Origin: Myxococcales bacterium
GTDB taxonomy: Bacteria; Myxococcota_A; Polyangia; Polyangiales; Houyiibacteriaceae
Direction of reading: 5' to 3'
Assembly: GCA_029861865.1 (NCBI GenBank)
Contig: JAOTYL010000013.1
Span: forward strand, 69,995 to 133,994
DNA length: 64,000 bases
This document shows positions 1-48,409 of this stretch, piece after piece. Position 1 is the stretch's first letter. Each line of letters starts with the position of its first letter. Below the pieces are notes generated by a model. That model made no database searches and was not told where the DNA came from. It saw only the letters and a list, made by a program, of their open reading frames with translations. The position numbers and the translations under genes were made by a program.

Positions 1-1419
1 AACCTCGACGTAGCTCGGCAGTGTGACCGTCGAAAGACGGACACCGACGTTGGGATAGTCATTTCTTCCCTCGGTCAAGATCTCATATCTCTTGGACGGC
101 TTTTCGATGATCTCGTAGTTGAACCAGTCATCATGGAATGTTTCGTAGTTCACCATGTGCGCGAAATGAATTTCGCATTCGCCCTGATGCACACCTTCCG
201 GGCAAACCGGCCTGCTCTTGGCGACCGGCGTGTCAACGGTTTCTGCGCTCTGTTGTACGCTGACCACCTGGTATCTATGTGCGGTGCCGCGAGGATAATT
301 TGCGTCGCTGCTCGTCCGCCAGAGTCCCCGCCGTGCGTCTACATTGGCTTTCCAGTGCCGACTCTCCGTTGCATCGAAAGGCTCCGCAAATCTGAGTATC
401 GTGGATGCGTATTCATCGATGGCGCAGACTAGTACGGGATAACCGCCTTCACCCAACGAGCACGTGCTGTCGTTACTTTCGTCCATGCTATCCCAAACCG
501 TGAAAGGAACCCCAACGAAGATTACACTGGCGCACCCGACGAAGTCGTCGTTGTCCGGGGTATGCTTCTTCCGGAATAGTGAGATGATGTTTGGCAGCAC
601 CTCGAGAGCACCACCCACGATGCCTAGCACCGCACCTACGCCAATCTTTGGCTGGAAATTGTCGATTCCCTGATCGATCAGCTCAATGAAATCATCGATC
701 TGAGCAAGTATCTGTTCGTAAAGTGGTGTATTCTGCGCTCGCTGCTGGGCCGTCAACGCGTTGAAGGCGGTTGTCGCCTGAGATCTCAGTACTGTCGCAA
801 CCTGCCGGAAGGCTGCTTTGGTCTGAGTTGACCCGAACAAGTTCTCCGAATAGACGTTGTCAAGGGTGGCCTCCAGCGCGGCGGCGAGATTCCCAAATTC
901 GGTCAGAATGGACCCGAGTTGATTCGCGTCGTCCTGCTCGAATCCACACGTTGTCAGCCCGGCGATCTTGACGTGCTTGCCAAGTCCAGCGAACGCAGTC
1001 TCCGGTACGTCCGGGAAATCGAACACGGCATGGCTAATGTCCTCTCCAAGGAGGACCTGTTCGCTGATCCGTGCGTTCCTCCGAACCTGAGCGGGCAGGT
1101 CGCCCCTCGTCACTCGAACTTTGGTGCTTCCGTCCGCGGTCCCTCCGGATACTGCTTTGGCCGACGTGGCTTCCCATATCATGGTCACGAAGTAAGGCTC
1201 TTCGTTTTCCCCACTGGCCCGATCGACGATCTCGAGAATCGGAAGGTCGATCTGGAGGTGTTCGGGATACGGACGAGGCGGACAGTTCGACCCGCAACAC
1301 GTCGGCCCTGCATTCAAGTACGAAGCCGCCAGAATGATCGGCACAAAGAAGGCCGCCGATTGCGTGGTTAGGCTAAGGGCTTTGCGACTTCGGGTTTGGG
1401 TCTTGCTTGGCTGGGCCAT
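1..1419 (-). CDS. Secreted or membrane-anchored protein of unknown function, C-terminus beyond the window
   Basis: An open frame of 473 codons runs on the minus strand from an ATG (complement 1417-1419) to the window edge without a stop. The N-terminus starts MAQPSKTQTRSRK and continues into a hydrophobic stretch of about 20 residues (around residues 16-36), so a signal peptide or anchor is likely. Shortly after come clustered cysteines (PTCCGSNC). The rest is mostly hydrophilic, with a Gly/Ala/Leu/Ile segment near residues 245-270 (around GAVLGIVGGALEVLP) that could be a second hydrophobic helix. I do not recognise a family and found no catalytic motif. A purine-rich AGGTGG lies just upstream of the ATG. 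The plus-strand frames here are shadows. The ATGAA array at 1465-1519 lies 46-100 bp upstream. Function unknown. Confidence 0.75.
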   Translation of the reverse strand, partial: MAQPSKTQTRSRKALSLTTQSAAFFVPIILAASYLNAGPTCCGSNCPPRPYPEHLQIDLPILEIVDRASGENEEPYFVTMIWEATSAKAVSGGTADGSTKVRVTRGDLPAQVRRNARISEQVLLGEDISHAVFDFPDVPETAFAGLGKHVKIAGLTTCGFEQDDANQLGSILTEFGNLAAALEATLDNVYSENLFGSTQTKAAFRQVATVLRSQATTAFNALTAQQRAQNTPLYEQILAQIDDFIELIDQGIDNFQPKIGVGAVLGIVGGALEVLPNIISLFRKKHTPDNDDFVGCASVIFVGVPFTVWDSMDESNDSTCSLGEGGYPVLVCAIDEYASTILRFAEPFDATESRHWKANVDARRGLWRTSSDANYPRGTAHRYQVVSVQQSAETVDTPVAKSRPVCPEGVHQGECEIHFAHMVNYETFHDDWFNYEIIEKPSKRYEILTEGRNDYPNVGVRLSTVTLPSYVEV

Positions 1420-1464: not shown

Positions 1465-1519
1465 ATGAATTAGTGTGAAGTCTTATGAAGTTTGATGAAC
1501 GAAAATGAATGAAGATGAA
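1465..1519 (+). promoter_or_regulatory. Six-unit array of ATGAA direct repeats with exact 10-bp period
   Basis: ATGAA (GTGAA in unit 2) occurs at 1465, 1475, 1485, 1495, 1505 and 1515, each exactly 10 bp from the last, so every copy faces the same side of the helix. The array lies in the divergent gap between the secreted-protein gene and the lgt-like gene. A four-unit version of the same array lies upstream of the response regulator gene (3974-4008). Seen: the periodicity. Known: OmpR/PhoB-type regulators bind tandem direct repeats spaced about one helical turn apart. Inferred: this is an operator for such a regulator, most simply the one encoded at 3212-3907. Confidence 0.6.
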
Positions 1520-1622: not shown

Positions 1623-2447
1623 ATGGCGACGCAGCTTTTGATTCCGTGGTTCGTGGCAGAGCCCTGGGTGGTTCACCTGCCGTTTCGCGAGCGCGAGCTC
1701 GTCGTGCAACCGTTTGCGGTGTCCGTGATCGCGGCGCTGTTTGTCGGGTACGTGGTGGCGATTTTGTTTGCGAGAAAGCACGACCGCCCGGTCGACCTGA
1801 CGCTCAATCTCGCGCTTTACCTCGTCGGGTTTGCCTTCCCCATTTCGTACTTGCTGAACGGGCTCTTTTACCAGCCGGACAAGTTCTTCCATGTGCTCAC
1901 GCGTCCTTCGGAGATCGCGGGCGCCGGGCTTGGTTGGTCGATGTACGGGGGGATCATCGGCACGATCATCGGTGCTCTGGTGTGGAAGTGGCGGCGAAAG
2001 GCGTCGATCCTCGCGGTGGGCGATTCGTTTGCGTTCGCGGGGCCGTTTGGGTGGACGATCGCGCGCCTCGGCTGCTTTGTGACGCACGATCATCCGGGGC
2101 GGGTGAGTGATTTCTTTTTGGCGGTGGCGGATTATCAAACCGGGGCGCCGCCCTACGAGCCGCGTCACGACCTCGGCCTCTACGGAGCGATCGTATTGAC
2201 AGGAGTTGCGATCACGTTCTTCGTGCTCAACCAAAAGCCGCGGAAGCCGGGGTTCTACGTGGGGCTGCTTCCGATGCTGCATGCACCCTGTCGGTTCATG
2301 CTGGATTTCTTGAGGGCGCCAGCCGCGGAGGGCGGGGATCTTCGCTACGCAGGGTTGACCCCGGCGCAGTATGTGGCGGTGATCCTGTTCGTCGCGGGGG
2401 TGCTAGTGATGCGGCGGGTCGCCAGAAGCGATGCGGCGCCAAGCTAA
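1623..2447 (+). CDS. Prolipoprotein diacylglyceryl transferase (Lgt)-like membrane protein
   Basis: This 274-residue protein has several membrane segments and the family hallmarks of Lgt, which moves diacylglycerol from phosphatidylglycerol to the lipobox cysteine of prolipoproteins. Recognisable parts are the glycine-rich SMYGGIIG, the signature region ARLGCFVTHDHPG (where Lgt enzymes carry GRIGNFINGE-like sequence), RHDLGLYGA, and RFMLDFLR near the C-terminus. The HDHPG variant differs from classical Lgt, so this may be a paralogue with a different acceptor or lipid; I therefore give no symbol. It starts at ATG 1623 and its end overlaps the convergent CPBP gene by 4 bp. The phased repeat array and the palindrome lie just upstream. 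Three putative lipoproteins in the window would be substrates of a true Lgt. Confidence 0.75.
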   Translation: MATQLLIPWFVAEPWVVHLPFRERELVVQPFAVSVIAALFVGYVVAILFARKHDRPVDLTLNLALYLVGFAFPISYLLNGLFYQPDKFFHVLTRPSEIAGAGLGWSMYGGIIGTIIGALVWKWRRKASILAVGDSFAFAGPFGWTIARLGCFVTHDHPGRVSDFFLAVADYQTGAPPYEPRHDLGLYGAIVLTGVAITFFVLNQKPRKPGFYVGLLPMLHAPCRFMLDFLRAPAAEGGDLRYAGLTPAQYVAVILFVAGVLVMRRVARSDAAPS

Positions 2448-3208
2448 GCGAGCTCCGACCTCTTCGACTGCTCCGAGGTTTGCTCCACGTGCCAATACCC
2501 GACGAACACCAACACGAGGGCCATCGAGGACCCGACCGCGACCCACGCGTTGCCTTCGATAACGTTGAACGTCATCCCTTCACTCAGGACTCGCCCATCG
2601 AGAGAGTACGTGCTGTTGAAGCGGTAGAAGTTCCAGGCGTAATGAAGCGCAAGGCCGTACCCGATGTGCCGGTAACGCACGAAGAGGGCATTCGCGATCG
2701 CGCCAAACGAGAAGAGGCTCACCATGGCCGGCCACTCGATGTCGACGCCGTTGAGCCCATAAAGCAGGTGGTGGCCTACCGAGAACAGCGCCGCGGTCAG
2801 GATGATCACGGTTTTAGGGTAGGGAAACGCGCGAAGCAGCAGGGTGAGGAGGGCGGCCCGGAGGACGATTTCGTCATTGAGCACCTGAAAGAACTGATGG
2901 ATCTGCGCAGGGGGATAGGCATTCAGATGCGCGCTGACCGGCTCGACGACCACGACCGAAAAGATCAAATACCAACACGCCGGCAGCAGGATGAAAAAGA
3001 GCCCGACGCTCACGGCAAGCTCTCTTGACGACAACTTCACGCCGAAGAACGTCAGTGTCTCTCGCCCATAGAACATCGCTCCGACGAAGAGGATCACGCA
3101 TGTGCTCGGAATCGCGCGCCACCAAACCCCGGGTAGGTAGAGATACGGAAACACATAGGCTGCGACGGCAACCGCGGCCGTAGCGCCGGCCCAAACCTCG
3201 CGGAGCAA
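2444..3208 (-). CDS. CPBP family intramembrane metalloprotease (CAAX protease-like)
   Basis: This 254-residue, very hydrophobic protein has about seven predicted membrane segments. The CPBP/Abi motifs are visible: NDEIVLRAALL (an acidic pair plus arginine, with Asp-Glu in place of the usual Glu-Glu), then FSVGHHLLYG and HYAWN, which supply the metal-binding histidines. Members of the family are membrane-embedded proteases or membrane chaperones with varied substrates. The gene starts 3 bp after the response regulator stop, so the two are almost certainly cotranscribed. The acidic substitution is conservative but worth noting. Its substrate cannot be inferred from sequence. Confidence 0.8.
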   Translation of the reverse strand: MLREVWAGATAAVAVAAYVFPYLYLPGVWWRAIPSTCVILFVGAMFYGRETLTFFGVKLSSRELAVSVGLFFILLPACWYLIFSVVVVEPVSAHLNAYPPAQIHQFFQVLNDEIVLRAALLTLLLRAFPYPKTVIILTAALFSVGHHLLYGLNGVDIEWPAMVSLFSFGAIANALFVRYRHIGYGLALHYAWNFYRFNSTYSLDGRVLSEGMTFNVIEGNAWVAVGSSMALVLVFVGYWHVEQTSEQSKRSELA

Positions 3209-3211
3209 CGT

Positions 3212-3907
3212 TCAGAGGCTCCAACGATAGCCGTGCCCGCGTTCTGTTCGTATGGCGTCGAACCCGGGGTCGATCGCGCGGAAGCGTGACCGGATCGAGC
3301 GAATGTGGGCGGCTACGGTGTTCGGTGCGACTTTGATGTTTGCGGCGGTCATGAGCTCGTTGGCGGTCTTGGCTTGGCCAGGTGAAGAGGCTGCGAGGGC
3401 AACCACCATCCAGTAATGCGTCAGCGAGAGCTCGATCGGTTGGCCATTCCAACGAACCGTCGTGCGCTGCAAATCGATCGCGAGTGGCCCGACGACCACT
3501 TGGGTGTTGCGTCCCTCATCCCCTTCAAGGATCGCCTCGTGCCGTTCTAGCAACGTCTCGATCCGCACCGCGAGAAACTCGAAGCTGCTGTCCTTCGACA
3601 GATAGTCGTCGCCCCCTACGCGCAGTCCCGAGATGCGGTCGGCATCACTGTCGTATGACGTGAGAAAGATCACCGGCAGGGTCGACGATATCTTGCGAAG
3701 ATCTTGGCATAACCGAAACCCGCCATCTCGCTCATCGCCAAGCGCCACGTCGAGCACTGCAATGTCGGGGAGGGCGGCGGCGAATGCCTGGGTTGCGGCC
3801 TCCCGCTCGGCGAAGTGGCGGACGCCGAAGCCACGTGCCTCGAGGAAGTCCGCGTAGTTCTCGCGAATCACATCGTCATCTTCGACTAGGCCAATGGTGC
3901 AACGCAT
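3212..3907 (-). CDS. OmpR/PhoB-type response regulator, resembling the sortase-system regulator PdsR
   Basis: The 231-residue protein has a receiver domain (acidic pocket EDDD at residues 9-12, phosphoacceptor Asp53 in AVLDVALGD, the conserved Thr in IFLTSYDSD, the Lys in DYLSKD) followed by a winged-helix output domain ending in RTERGHGYRWSL. The receiver, especially LGDERDGGFRLCQDLR and FLTSYDSDADRISGLR, resembles what I remember of the proteobacterial dedicated-sortase response regulator family. No sortase and no partner histidine kinase is visible nearby, so it is an orphan here. A four-unit phased ATGAA array lies 67-101 bp upstream, suggesting autoregulation. The family assignment is from memory and moderate; the OmpR-type architecture is firm. 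Confidence 0.85.
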   Translation of the reverse strand: MRCTIGLVEDDDVIRENYADFLEARGFGVRHFAEREAATQAFAAALPDIAVLDVALGDERDGGFRLCQDLRKISSTLPVIFLTSYDSDADRISGLRVGGDDYLSKDSSFEFLAVRIETLLERHEAILEGDEGRNTQVVVGPLAIDLQRTTVRWNGQPIELSLTHYWMVVALAASSPGQAKTANELMTAANIKVAPNTVAAHIRSIRSRFRAIDPGFDAIRTERGHGYRWSL

Positions 3908-3973: not shown

Positions 3974-4008
3974 TTCATTTTCATTCATCAAAAATCATCG
4001 AAATTCAT
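3974..4008 (-). promoter_or_regulatory. Four-unit ATGAA array with 10-bp period, matching the one at 1465-1519
   Basis: Read on the minus strand, ATGAA/ATGAT/ATGAA/ATGAA recur with exact 10-bp spacing (TTCAT on the plus strand at 3974, 3984 and 4004; ATCAT at 3994). Spacer sequence is partly shared with the first array as well (ATGAAtgaaaATGAA here, ATGAAcgaaaATGAA there). It lies between the divergent response regulator (start 67 bp away) and the lipoprotein gene at 4080 (72 bp away). Its AT-richness contrasts sharply with the GC-rich surroundings. Probable operator for the neighbouring regulator. Confidence 0.6.
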
Positions 4009-4079: not shown

Positions 4080-5387
4080 ATGGCCTTGGTTCGTTCATTT
4101 TCTTTGTTTGTTCTCCCCGTGGCTCTATTGGCTTGCGGGGACGATGGTGCGCCGGCGCCGGTGGCGCTTCAAGACGTGGTGCGGTGCGATATCACGCAGA
4201 GCGTGTGTCAGCGTGCGATTTTCGAATCGGTGGCGGAAAGCCTGGGGGCCGATTCGACTACGCTGCCCGCCATCCGCACCATTTCGGTCGAGCAGTTCGA
4301 GGAAGAGGTTCGGAGTGGGGTGAGCGCCGACGACTTGATGGGGAATGACCCCGAGACGCGCGGCCTTCGCCTGATCGGGTTCATCCCGGAGGCGGCCGAG
4401 AGCGTGACCGAAACTGAGATCGACTACCAGGTGAGCGGGATCGCGGCGTACTACAGCAGCGGAAGCCGCTCGATCACGGTCATCGATCGCGACTACGAAG
4501 TGGTGACCGCACAGTCGATTCTGGCGCACGAGTTCGTGCATGCGATTCAGGACCGGCAGTTTGGGATCGGCTCGGTCTATGCCAACGTCGATACGACCGA
4601 CGGCGTGATGGGAGCCCGGACCGTCATCGAAGGGGACGCAACCTATTCTTCGTTCGCATGGATCTACGACAAGCTCGGCACCGCGGTCGACTGGGATCAA
4701 TTGTATCTCGACTTCCAAGAGGGCTCCCTTCTGGAGGCGGCGGATCCGGAAGTGCCGATCATTGCCTCAGCGTCGGGTTTCCCGTACGCGTACGGGCTCG
4801 AGCTCCTCGGTCGAGCAACTCAAGCGGAAGGGCTTTCGGGGCGTGCCGCGTTCTTCATGGCGCCGCCACCTTCGGCGCGGGACTCGATGGTCGGGTACGA
4901 GGCGTTCGTCAACAATGGCTTCACGATGATCGACGCGCCGGAGGATGCCTTCCCCGCGCCGGTGGCGGAAAGCGCGCTGACTCTCGAGGACCGCTTCGGC
5001 GCTTGGTATGCGTTTGCGACGCTTTTGCGTGCGGGGTTCGAGCGGGAGGTCGCGTTCTTCTACGCTAGCCTGTGGCTCGGCGATGAGCTCGGGGTCTTCG
5101 AGAACGGCTCGGAGGTCGTTGCGGTGTGGCGCATTCGGTTTGCGGTCGACCCGAGCCTTGTGGCCGAGGCGATCAATCAATCGGACCGAGACGTGGCCTG
5201 GTCGGCGGTGTTGCAGGACAATGACTTGTTCATCATCGCCGCCGAGAGCGATGCCTCGTTGGCGCTTTGGGAGGCGCAGCCACTCGACGTCGTGGCCGCC
5301 GCGCTCGCGTCGGTGCCGGATGTCCGAAAGGGGATTCCGGGGGCGGGCCCGCTCCGATGCAATCCGCCCCGTTTCCGCGGGAACTGA
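4080..5387 (+). CDS. Putative lipoprotein with HExxH metallopeptidase motif
   Basis: From ATG 4080 the product is 435 residues: a short signal peptide, then LPVALLACG, which reads as a lipobox with the lipidated Cys. The central part contains SILAHEFVHAIQDRQFG with His150, Glu151 and His154, the HExxH zinc-binding signature, followed some 30 residues later by TVIEGDATYSS, whose Glu may be the third ligand. This pattern suggests a gluzincin-like secreted peptidase, though the family is unknown to me. A TTG 54 bp upstream in frame would put extra residues before the signal peptide and is rejected. It lies downstream of the phased array and faces away from the regulator gene. Confidence 0.75.
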   Translation: MALVRSFSLFVLPVALLACGDDGAPAPVALQDVVRCDITQSVCQRAIFESVAESLGADSTTLPAIRTISVEQFEEEVRSGVSADDLMGNDPETRGLRLIGFIPEAAESVTETEIDYQVSGIAAYYSSGSRSITVIDRDYEVVTAQSILAHEFVHAIQDRQFGIGSVYANVDTTDGVMGARTVIEGDATYSSFAWIYDKLGTAVDWDQLYLDFQEGSLLEAADPEVPIIASASGFPYAYGLELLGRATQAEGLSGRAAFFMAPPPSARDSMVGYEAFVNNGFTMIDAPEDAFPAPVAESALTLEDRFGAWYAFATLLRAGFEREVAFFYASLWLGDELGVFENGSEVVAVWRIRFAVDPSLVAEAINQSDRDVAWSAVLQDNDLFIIAAESDASLALWEAQPLDVVAAALASVPDVRKGIPGAGPLRCNPPRFRGN

Positions 5388-5422: not shown

Positions 5423-5505
5423 AATAGAACACGTTCTATTCCAAAAAGGGGACAGTCCCCTTTTTACAAGGGTTAACCCCTCGGAAAAGGGGACTGTCCC
5501 CTTTT
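5423..5505. repeat. Tandem palindromes including two GGGGACWGTCCCC elements
   Basis: Four dyads follow each other between two genes: AATAGAAC/GTTCTATT (5423-5440), a 23-bp odd palindrome centred on 5454 (core GGGGACAGTCCCC flanked by A5 and T5), GGGTTAACCC (5470-5479), and a 21-bp palindrome centred on 5495 (core GGGGACTGTCCCC). The same core with a similar AGGGGTTAA tail recurs at 14454. It behaves like an interspersed extragenic palindrome (REP-like). The A/T-flanked stems could also terminate transcription in both directions. Confidence 0.65.
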
Positions 5506-5515
5506 CAGGTGTTGC

Positions 5516-6649
5516 ATGAAGACTGAGATTTGTGAGCGGTTGGGGATCGAGTTCCCGATCTTTGCGTTTAGTCACTGCCGCGATGTGGTGGCGGCGGTCA
5601 GTCGGGCGGGGGGGCTCGGGGTGTTGGGAGCGGTCGCGTACAGCCCAGAGCAGCTCGAGCTCGAGCTGAAATGGATCGACGAGCATGTCGACGGCAAGCC
5701 TTACGGCGTCGATACGGTCATCCCCGCCAAGTACATCGGCAAGGACCAGGGCGACATCACCAAAGAGCAGCTCGAGCAGATGATCACGCCTGCGCATCGC
5801 AAGTGGATCAACGACCTTCTCGACCGCCACGGCGTCCCGCCGCTCCCCGATGACGTCGAGCAGATCGAAGGCTTGCTCGGGTGGTCGGCCTCCGGTGGCC
5901 GTGCGCACTTCGAGGTGGCGATGAAACATCCAATCGCGCTCATCGCCAACGCGCTCGGCCCGCCCCCCGACGACATCATCAGTCAGGCACACGACAAAGG
6001 TGTGATGGTCGCGGCCCTTTGCGGGACCGTGAAGCAGGCGATCAAGCAGAAGGACGCCGGCGTCGATATCGTCATCGCGTCGGGGTTCGAGGCGGGTGGT
6101 CATACCGGTGAGATCGGCTCGATGGTTCTGTTGCCGCAGGTGGTCGATGCCGTGGCTCCGACGCCCGTGCTTGCCGCCGGCGGGATCGGCTCGGGCCGAC
6201 AGATGGCAGCGGCGATGGTGATGGGAGCTGCGGGCGTCTGGACCGGCTCGATTTGGCTCGCCACCGAAGAATCCGACTCGATTCCGTCGTTGGTCGACAA
6301 GCTGCTCGTCGCCGATTCGACCGAGACGGTGCGCTCGCGCTGCATCAGCGGCAAGCCCGCCCGCCAGCTCAAGACGGCGTACACTCGCGCATGGGACGAA
6401 GACCCCGAGTGCCCCGGCTACCTACCGATGCCGCTACAATTCATGGCGACCTCCGAAGCGACACAGCGCATCACGCGCTTCGCGCAGAGTGGTGTCGAGG
6501 GCTCGGAGGCGCTCCTCGGCACGCCGGTCGGTCAGGTCGTCGGCCAGATGAACACGCGCAAGCCTGCCCGTCAGGTCGTCGAAGAAATGGTCAGCGAGTA
6601 CATCGACGCCGTCGAACACATCTCAACGCTGCTCGCCAACTCCGAGTGA
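5516..6649 (+). CDS. NAD(P)H-dependent flavin oxidoreductase, nitronate monooxygenase family
   Basis: The 377-residue product matches the FMN-dependent TIM-barrel family of nitronate monooxygenase/2-nitropropane dioxygenase. Characteristic stretches are IFAFSHCRDVVAAVSRAGG with LGVLGA at the N-terminus, the phosphate-binding ASGFEAGGHTGEIGSM, and VLAAGGIGSGRQMAAAMVMGA followed by GVWTGSIWLAT. The family oxidises nitronates or acts on other small substrates; the exact substrate is not readable. The ATG is 11 bp after the second REP-like palindrome, so that palindrome lies in or next to its leader. It probably forms a single-gene unit, since the next gene is convergent. Confidence 0.85.
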   Translation: MKTEICERLGIEFPIFAFSHCRDVVAAVSRAGGLGVLGAVAYSPEQLELELKWIDEHVDGKPYGVDTVIPAKYIGKDQGDITKEQLEQMITPAHRKWINDLLDRHGVPPLPDDVEQIEGLLGWSASGGRAHFEVAMKHPIALIANALGPPPDDIISQAHDKGVMVAALCGTVKQAIKQKDAGVDIVIASGFEAGGHTGEIGSMVLLPQVVDAVAPTPVLAAGGIGSGRQMAAAMVMGAAGVWTGSIWLATEESDSIPSLVDKLLVADSTETVRSRCISGKPARQLKTAYTRAWDEDPECPGYLPMPLQFMATSEATQRITRFAQSGVEGSEALLGTPVGQVVGQMNTRKPARQVVEEMVSEYIDAVEHISTLLANSE

Positions 6650-32108: not shown

Positions 32109-32239
32109 CTATGTTGCGCTGGATCGCGATTTTTTTTCGCGTCCGGTTCCCTGAAGAGGATTGGTCCGTCTGTGACTTTCAGTGCCAGCGAGTGACAGAA
32201 AGTGCCAACATTGGTCAGAATGTGACTCAACTTGTTCGG

Positions 32240-32475: not shown

Positions 32476-32696
32476 CCCCAACAAAGTTTGGTCCCTTTTG
32501 ACGCGCGATGAATCGACTTGGAGTTTATTGCACCAATCTGAACCACAGTGACTCCTTTTGCCTCACGGTGACTCAAGCTGCGTCATTCGGAGTCAGACCG
32601 AATCACTTCAGTGCAAAAAAACGCAGCACGCGCCAAAGAAGAGCAGAACGAGCCACTCTGCATCACTACGAAATGATTCCGCGACTCGAGCAACTT

Positions 32697-48010: not shown

Positions 48011-48409
48011 ATGACTGTCAATGACAAACTGTCCGAGTCGGACCGTGCCAAGTATGGCGAGGCGCGGCGGCTTAGTGAACGCGGCGACGTGTCTGGCTAC
48101 ACATCACTGTTGTTGGAGCTAGTAGATTCGAATCCGAACGTCGGTATCCTGCACGCGATGGTCGCCAACGGCTGTTGGGACCTTGACGAGCATGTTCGCG
48201 CGGCGGTTCACTTTGGCCGAGCGGTACAGCTTTCGCCAACGTCGGAAGCAATCTCGTTAGTTTACTTTCATTTTCTTCTCGAGCATGGCCTAGAAACCGA
48301 AGCTGAACACGAGCTGCGGCGGTTTCTGAAAGGTGAAGAATCCGAGGAGCATCTCGCCCTGGCGCGCACACTTGGCATCGAACTCTCCGATGGCCGGATC
48401 GATAGGTAA
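48011..48409 (+). CDS. Small TPR-like protein
   Basis: The 132-residue product is a helical repeat protein: GEARRLSERGDVSGYTSLLL, NVGILHAMVANGCWDLDEHV, RAAVHFGRAVQLSPTSEAIS and HFLLEHGLETEAEHELRRFL read as three or four TPR/Sel1-like hairpins. It is soluble and has no enzymatic motif. It starts 58 bp after the metallopeptidase-like gene on the same strand, so the two may act together. It is the last gene before repeat B. Confidence 0.6.
   Translation: MTVNDKLSESDRAKYGEARRLSERGDVSGYTSLLLELVDSNPNVGILHAMVANGCWDLDEHVRAAVHFGRAVQLSPTSEAISLVYFHFLLEHGLETEAEHELRRFLKGEESEEHLALARTLGIELSDGRIDR

Follow-up and report, generated by a model that had tools for sequence, protein, structure and literature searches.

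The canonical locus of the proteobacterial dedicated sortase system combines PdsR and PdsS (families TIGR03787 and TIGR03785) with a TIGR03788 target and a class GN sortase (TIGR03784); TIGR03787 is the response regulator of the system, and it carries the name PdsR in annotated plasmids. Regulators of the wider OmpR/PhoB type bind direct-repeat units head to tail, with multi-unit operators described for Streptomyces PhoP, whose PHO boxes form simple and complex operators with a varying number of units (PMC4415409). Cys-containing tags are cleaved by myxosortase, a CPBP protease; an Lgt-like acyltransferase is proposed to lipidate first, and MrtX is described as occurring throughout its phylum (PMC11980579).

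Here we describe a locus of a Myxococcales bacterium in which a PdsR-like regulator gene lies beside an Lgt paralogue, a CPBP protease gene and two arrays of short direct repeats that very probably serve as the tandem operators of that regulator, as judged from sequence comparison. The stretch of DNA analysed, 64,000 nucleotides long, is referred to as the window, and its features are given below in window coordinates, except for two kinase genes given in coordinates of the contig (C16).

1465..1519, plus strand: array 1, six RTGAA half-sites with an exact 10-bp period (pattern search and rank under the Desulfobulbia matrix)
3974..4008, minus strand: array 2, four RTGAW half-sites with an exact 10-bp period (pattern search and rank under the Desulfobulbia matrix)
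1..1419 in the window, minus strand: secreted protein with an N-terminal hydrophobic segment and Cys (AASYLNAGPTCCGSNC), 667 aa in full
1623..2447, plus strand: Lgt paralogue (PF01790, 7.2e-26)
2444..3208, minus strand: CPBP (Rce1-like) intramembrane protease (PF02517, 2.6e-9)
3212..3907, minus strand: OmpR/PhoB-type response regulator, PdsR-like, presumed binder of both arrays (Pfam and NCBIfam; TIGR03787, 262.6 bits)
4081..5387, plus strand: HExxH lipoprotein (AHEFVH), divergent from the regulator (weak Hvo_1808-family match, 64 bits against a cut-off of 200)
C16:56864-58276 (L052 865-2277), outside the window on the same contig: PdsS-like kinase candidate 1, transmitter nearest TIGR03785
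C16:63560-64897 (L052 7561-8898), outside the window on the same contig: PdsS-like kinase candidate 2, transmitter nearest TIGR03785

Array 1 lies in the divergent intergenic region between the minus-strand gene starting at 1419 and the plus-strand Lgt-like gene at 1623; 46 bp separate its edge from the former gene's start codon. Its copies start at 1465 (ATGAA), 1475 (GTGAA) and 1485, 1495, 1505 and 1515 (all ATGAA), and its GC content is 29% against 62% for the window; coordinates, composition and gene positions thus bear out the preliminary description of six ATGAA/GTGAA copies, spaced by exactly 10 bp, in an AT-rich divergent intergenic region. A three-copy pattern with up to two mismatches occurs nine times in the window, where 0.38 matches are expected, and all four exact matches fall inside array 1. 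The matching array that had been placed before the OmpR-type regulator gene is likewise present, as four copies at 4008-3974 on the minus strand in the order ATGAA-ATGAT-ATGAA-ATGAA (5′ ends at 4008, 3998, 3988 and 3978), followed by a possible degenerate fifth copy, GCGAC, at 3968-3964. Array 2 is upstream of the regulator gene and in sense with it, 66 bp before its start at 3907. Both arrays consist of direct, not inverted, repeats, with six and four copies and a period within the 10-11 bp that marks OmpR/PhoB-type tandem operators. When the whole genome (4.2 Mb) was searched for four copies with three mismatches allowed, the two arrays, each within 2.5 kb of the regulator gene, were the only places with zero or one mismatch, and three other scattered places had exactly three each. 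Directly past array 1, at 1525-1540, we also observed a perfect 16-bp palindrome, TCCCTCACGTGAGGGA, which may be a further operator or else a terminator, its minus-strand score being that of a weak terminator-like stem.

Slippage produces short-period repeats, and in some genomes of the phylum ATGAA 10-mers resemble plain minisatellites (for example ATGAAGGGGG, repeated in G1017), so array 1 could have arisen passively through tandem duplication or slippage, or could be intrinsically bent DNA that has no specific binder. Its spacers (TTAGT, GTCTT, GTTTG, CGAAA and TGAAG), however, are mutually unrelated while five positions in ten are kept, which argues that it is not a simple duplicated minisatellite; the spacers also differ between array 1 and array 2, and the phase is kept by homologues in another phylum (see below). 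We consider a passive origin extremely unlikely.

The regulator is, by profile comparison, a relative of the dedicated-sortase-system regulator PdsR. TIGR03787 is its best family, although the score is below the cut-off of 335.7 bits, with CreB next at 132; all 47 of the 47 Desulfobulbia relatives also score below the TIGR03787 cut-off. The two kinase genes lie 8-17 kb from the regulator locus, and their transmitters match TIGR03785 at 1e-44 and 1e-46, with the next family at 1e-24, about 20 orders of magnitude away, whereas an unrelated kinase in a genome of the same genus (G026), taken as a control, has no such preference. Only the transmitter domain matches, with scores of 159 and 152 bits against a cut-off of 612. 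The kinase genes are 5 kb apart and have similar PdsS-like transmitters and multi-pass N-termini, and they could be paralogues that sense different signals. A profile search for the class GN sortase (TIGR03784), for which G318 was positive, found none in this genome.

Among the 318 genomes of the class, the full regulator occurs only here; in G026 the gene is truncated and interrupted by a stop, and no array accompanies it. We rejected the idea that the regulator is ancestral to the genus, as it is absent from all other members apart from the G026 remnant. The nearest full homologues, 45-49% identical, come from a Desulfobulbaceae bacterium, a Woeseiaceae bacterium and unclassified proteobacteria, suggesting that the regulator was probably acquired horizontally. 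An array common to the genus was likewise rejected: the exact three-copy pattern occurs in 3/34 genomes of the family, and repeatedly at one place only in this one. Regulator homologues elsewhere in the phylum (39-42% identity) have no comparable array, and four-copy matches in other genomes of the phylum, considered as like arrays, mostly resemble plain minisatellites or low-complexity DNA. One further genome, G017, carries an Lgt paralogue and a CPBP gene together (56% and 52% identical to the window genes) with no array upstream, where the preceding gene directly abuts. The preliminary description had named arrays missing from relatives with the same genes as grounds for giving up its reading, and this pair does lack one; yet no regulator was detected in G017 either, and the genome is 82% complete, so that this is the expected outcome and does not count against the reading. 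As far as one comparison can say, the array appears to go with the regulator and not with the enzyme pair.

We compared the regions upstream of 30 Desulfobulbia PdsR-like genes and 30 gammaproteobacterial PdsR genes, using coding sequence as a control. In the Desulfobulbia, pairs of RTGAC recur at a spacing of 10 bp in 16/30 loci and of 21 bp in 15/30, against 0/30 in the coding control; the only other spacings seen were 6 (five loci) and 8 (one locus). RTGA[CT] followed by RTGAC at 10 bp is found in 20/30 loci, and the remaining 10/30 show no repeat within 450 bp. When aligned, the half-sites typically fall at 0, 22, 43 and 53, several loci having a further NTGAA-like one around 11, and are thus helically phased over ~58 bp, where array 1 spans 55 bp. 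Most of these repeats lie in divergent intergenic regions, usually between the regulator and the divergent gene, which in L014/L113 is a TIGR03788 sortase target; several other divergent genes encode, by eye, a similar DPGN/DPGY-type N-terminus. Upstream of the gammaproteobacterial PdsR genes we found instead RTGGC at 11 bp (9/30 loci; coding control 0/30). The recognition-helix region reads NNAIAAHIRRIRDKF in the Desulfobulbia, PNTVAAHIRSIRSRF in the window regulator and STITSHIKRIRKKF in most Gammaproteobacteria, so that the window regulator and its Desulfobulbia relatives have in common the helix type AHIR, whereas gammaproteobacterial PdsRs have SHIK. AHIR therefore goes with RTGAC at 10 bp and SHIK with RTGGC at 11 bp, suggesting that helix type and half-site change together, although the half-site itself differs between the window (ATGAA) and the Desulfobulbia relatives (ATGAC).

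We built a matrix from the Desulfobulbia half-sites alone, chained it four times with 10-bp steps and scanned 78 kb of the contig, where it ranked array 2 first (19.75) and array 1 second (16.22); in 40 simulated sequences the maxima were 7.5 ± 3.5, the largest being 14.9. The runners-up, at 15.4 and 13.9, were iterated GTGAC sites near 32.2-32.6 kb. A matrix of two half-sites did not place the arrays first in the 78 kb, its best match being a chance-like pair at 48011. The sites near 32 kb are iterated GTGAC/GTGCC in ~10-bp steps on opposite strands (window 32170-32230 and 32540-32610), and by eye they resemble the ends of a transposon or integrative element. The Desulfobulbia comparison and the matrix together support what had been proposed from the letters of this locus, namely an operator, helical phasing, head-to-tail binding and a link to the regulator at 3212-3907.

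BldC-like MerR-fold proteins and nucleoid proteins also use direct repeats near 10 bp, and array 1 is AT-rich, both of which would suit binding by such a head-to-tail polymerising protein in place of the adjacent regulator. Against this, the genome has such arrays at two places only, each next to the regulator gene, and distant homologues of the regulator have a similar layout upstream; a general binder would not be expected to follow this gene. We regard a binder of this kind as highly unlikely.

What we observe is the two arrays, how nearly unique they are in the genome, and the matching 10-bp repeats of the regulator family; what we infer is binding, a phosphorylation partner, a sign of regulation and a regulon. 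In the proposed mechanism, one of the PdsS-like kinases (C16:63560-64897 or C16:56864-58276) would phosphorylate the regulator, which would then bind head to tail along one face of the helix, each RTGAA half-site taking up one DNA-binding domain at 10-bp intervals, so that array 1 would carry three dimers and array 2 two. Through array 2 the regulator would control the unit of its own gene and the CPBP gene, and through array 1 the Lgt paralogue and/or the genes for secreted proteins on the opposite side, making both flanking transcription units a plausible regulon, predicted from pattern searches of the genome. Activation is the likelier sign, because about half of the Desulfobulbia loci have an extended -10-like element 42-44 bp past their last half-site, and TATGGT lies 44 bp after that of array 2; for array 2 we propose activation with fair confidence. 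Beside array 1, no sigma-70-like promoter was found on either strand. The same operators could instead be repressor sites that keep the Lgt and surface-protein genes silent as long as the kinase gives no signal, as array 1, this close to the minus-strand start codon, could cover the promoter of that gene, whereas the Desulfobulbia sites, upstream of their -10-like elements, sit in the position of an activator. We consider repression somewhat unlikely; it differs from activation through tandem operators of the PdsR-like regulator in sign alone, and our estimate for it does not compete with the operator assignment.

The genes around the arrays form a cluster in which the CPBP gene is directly downstream of the regulator gene and convergent (tail to tail) with the Lgt paralogue, which is 47% identical to a probable housekeeping Lgt elsewhere in the genome (C18). 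A run of genes for secreted proteins begins with the minus-strand gene at 1419: 7 bp after the end of this gene, whose product has 667 aa, comes one for a 664-aa protein that has RTX-type repeats and resembles the first at its N-terminus, and beyond it a Doc-like protein and one of 547 aa are encoded. An N-terminus with YLNxG and then Cys is common to two secreted proteins of the run. The run occupies L052 8985-13403 (C16:64984-69402), with the Doc-like (Fic/DOC) gene between its members. On the other side, a repeated, partly self-complementary AAAAGGGGACTGTCCCCTTTT-type sequence lies at 5440-5510, between the genes at 4081-5387 and 5516-6649. Another genome of the genus, G025, has three Lgt-like genes (L049, L051). 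In E. coli Lgt, His103 is essential; at the matching position, the two G025 copies that were aligned and the window paralogue have Tyr.

The preliminary description could not match this system to anything described, a view that is not supported: the regulator and both kinases near it are of PdsR/PdsS descent, and operators made of tandem direct repeats are usual among OmpR/PhoB-type regulators. Systems of this kind are already known, and what is new is a sortase-system regulator re-used beside an Lgt-paralogue/CPBP-protease pair. In a literature search we found no paper on the PdsR-type regulator, its operator code or its detachment from sortase. The comparison yields a predicted operator code for a widespread, little-studied regulator family, with RTGAC/RTGAA at 10 bp or RTGGC at 11 bp according to helix type.

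Compared with myxosortase, the window cluster similarly pairs a CPBP protease with an Lgt-like enzyme and Cys-bearing secreted proteins, and by analogy we suggest that the pair may resemble the lipidation-plus-cleavage scheme proposed there. The window CPBP protein, however, is narrowly distributed (two genomes and one weak match among 318), unlike the phylum-universal MrtX (PMC11980579), and a CPBP relative in G124 has no Lgt neighbour. The Cys motifs of the cluster are N-terminal, and by eye none of its three secreted proteins has a C-terminal Cys-TM-Arg tag. It is a speculative and on balance unlikely reading that a sortase-system two-component module has been rewired here to govern dedicated lipid-anchoring machinery, such that the Lgt paralogue would lipidate, and the CPBP protease trim, a few co-encoded surface proteins with a non-standard N-terminal Cys signal; if true, it would supply the dedicated lipidating partner that has been proposed for CPBP sorting enzymes but is still missing. 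The paired cluster makes the proposed lipidate-then-cleave model testable.

The arrays resemble the PHO boxes of PhoB/PhoP in their tandem head-to-tail direct-repeat units, with binding here predicted, but differ in unit length (11 nt, CTGTCAT or GTTCACC, in PHO boxes and 10 nt, RTGAA, here), regulator family and regulon (PMC4415409). The likeness to PdsR/PdsS extends to the regulator family, the kinase transmitter family and the presence of direct-repeat arrays in a divergent intergenic region beside the regulator. The locus departs from that system in the absence of the class GN sortase from the genome, in kinases with a different sensor part that are encoded several kb away, in having an Lgt paralogue and a CPBP protease beside the regulator, and in its six- and four-copy RTGAA arrays, as against two to four RTGAC or RTGGC sites.
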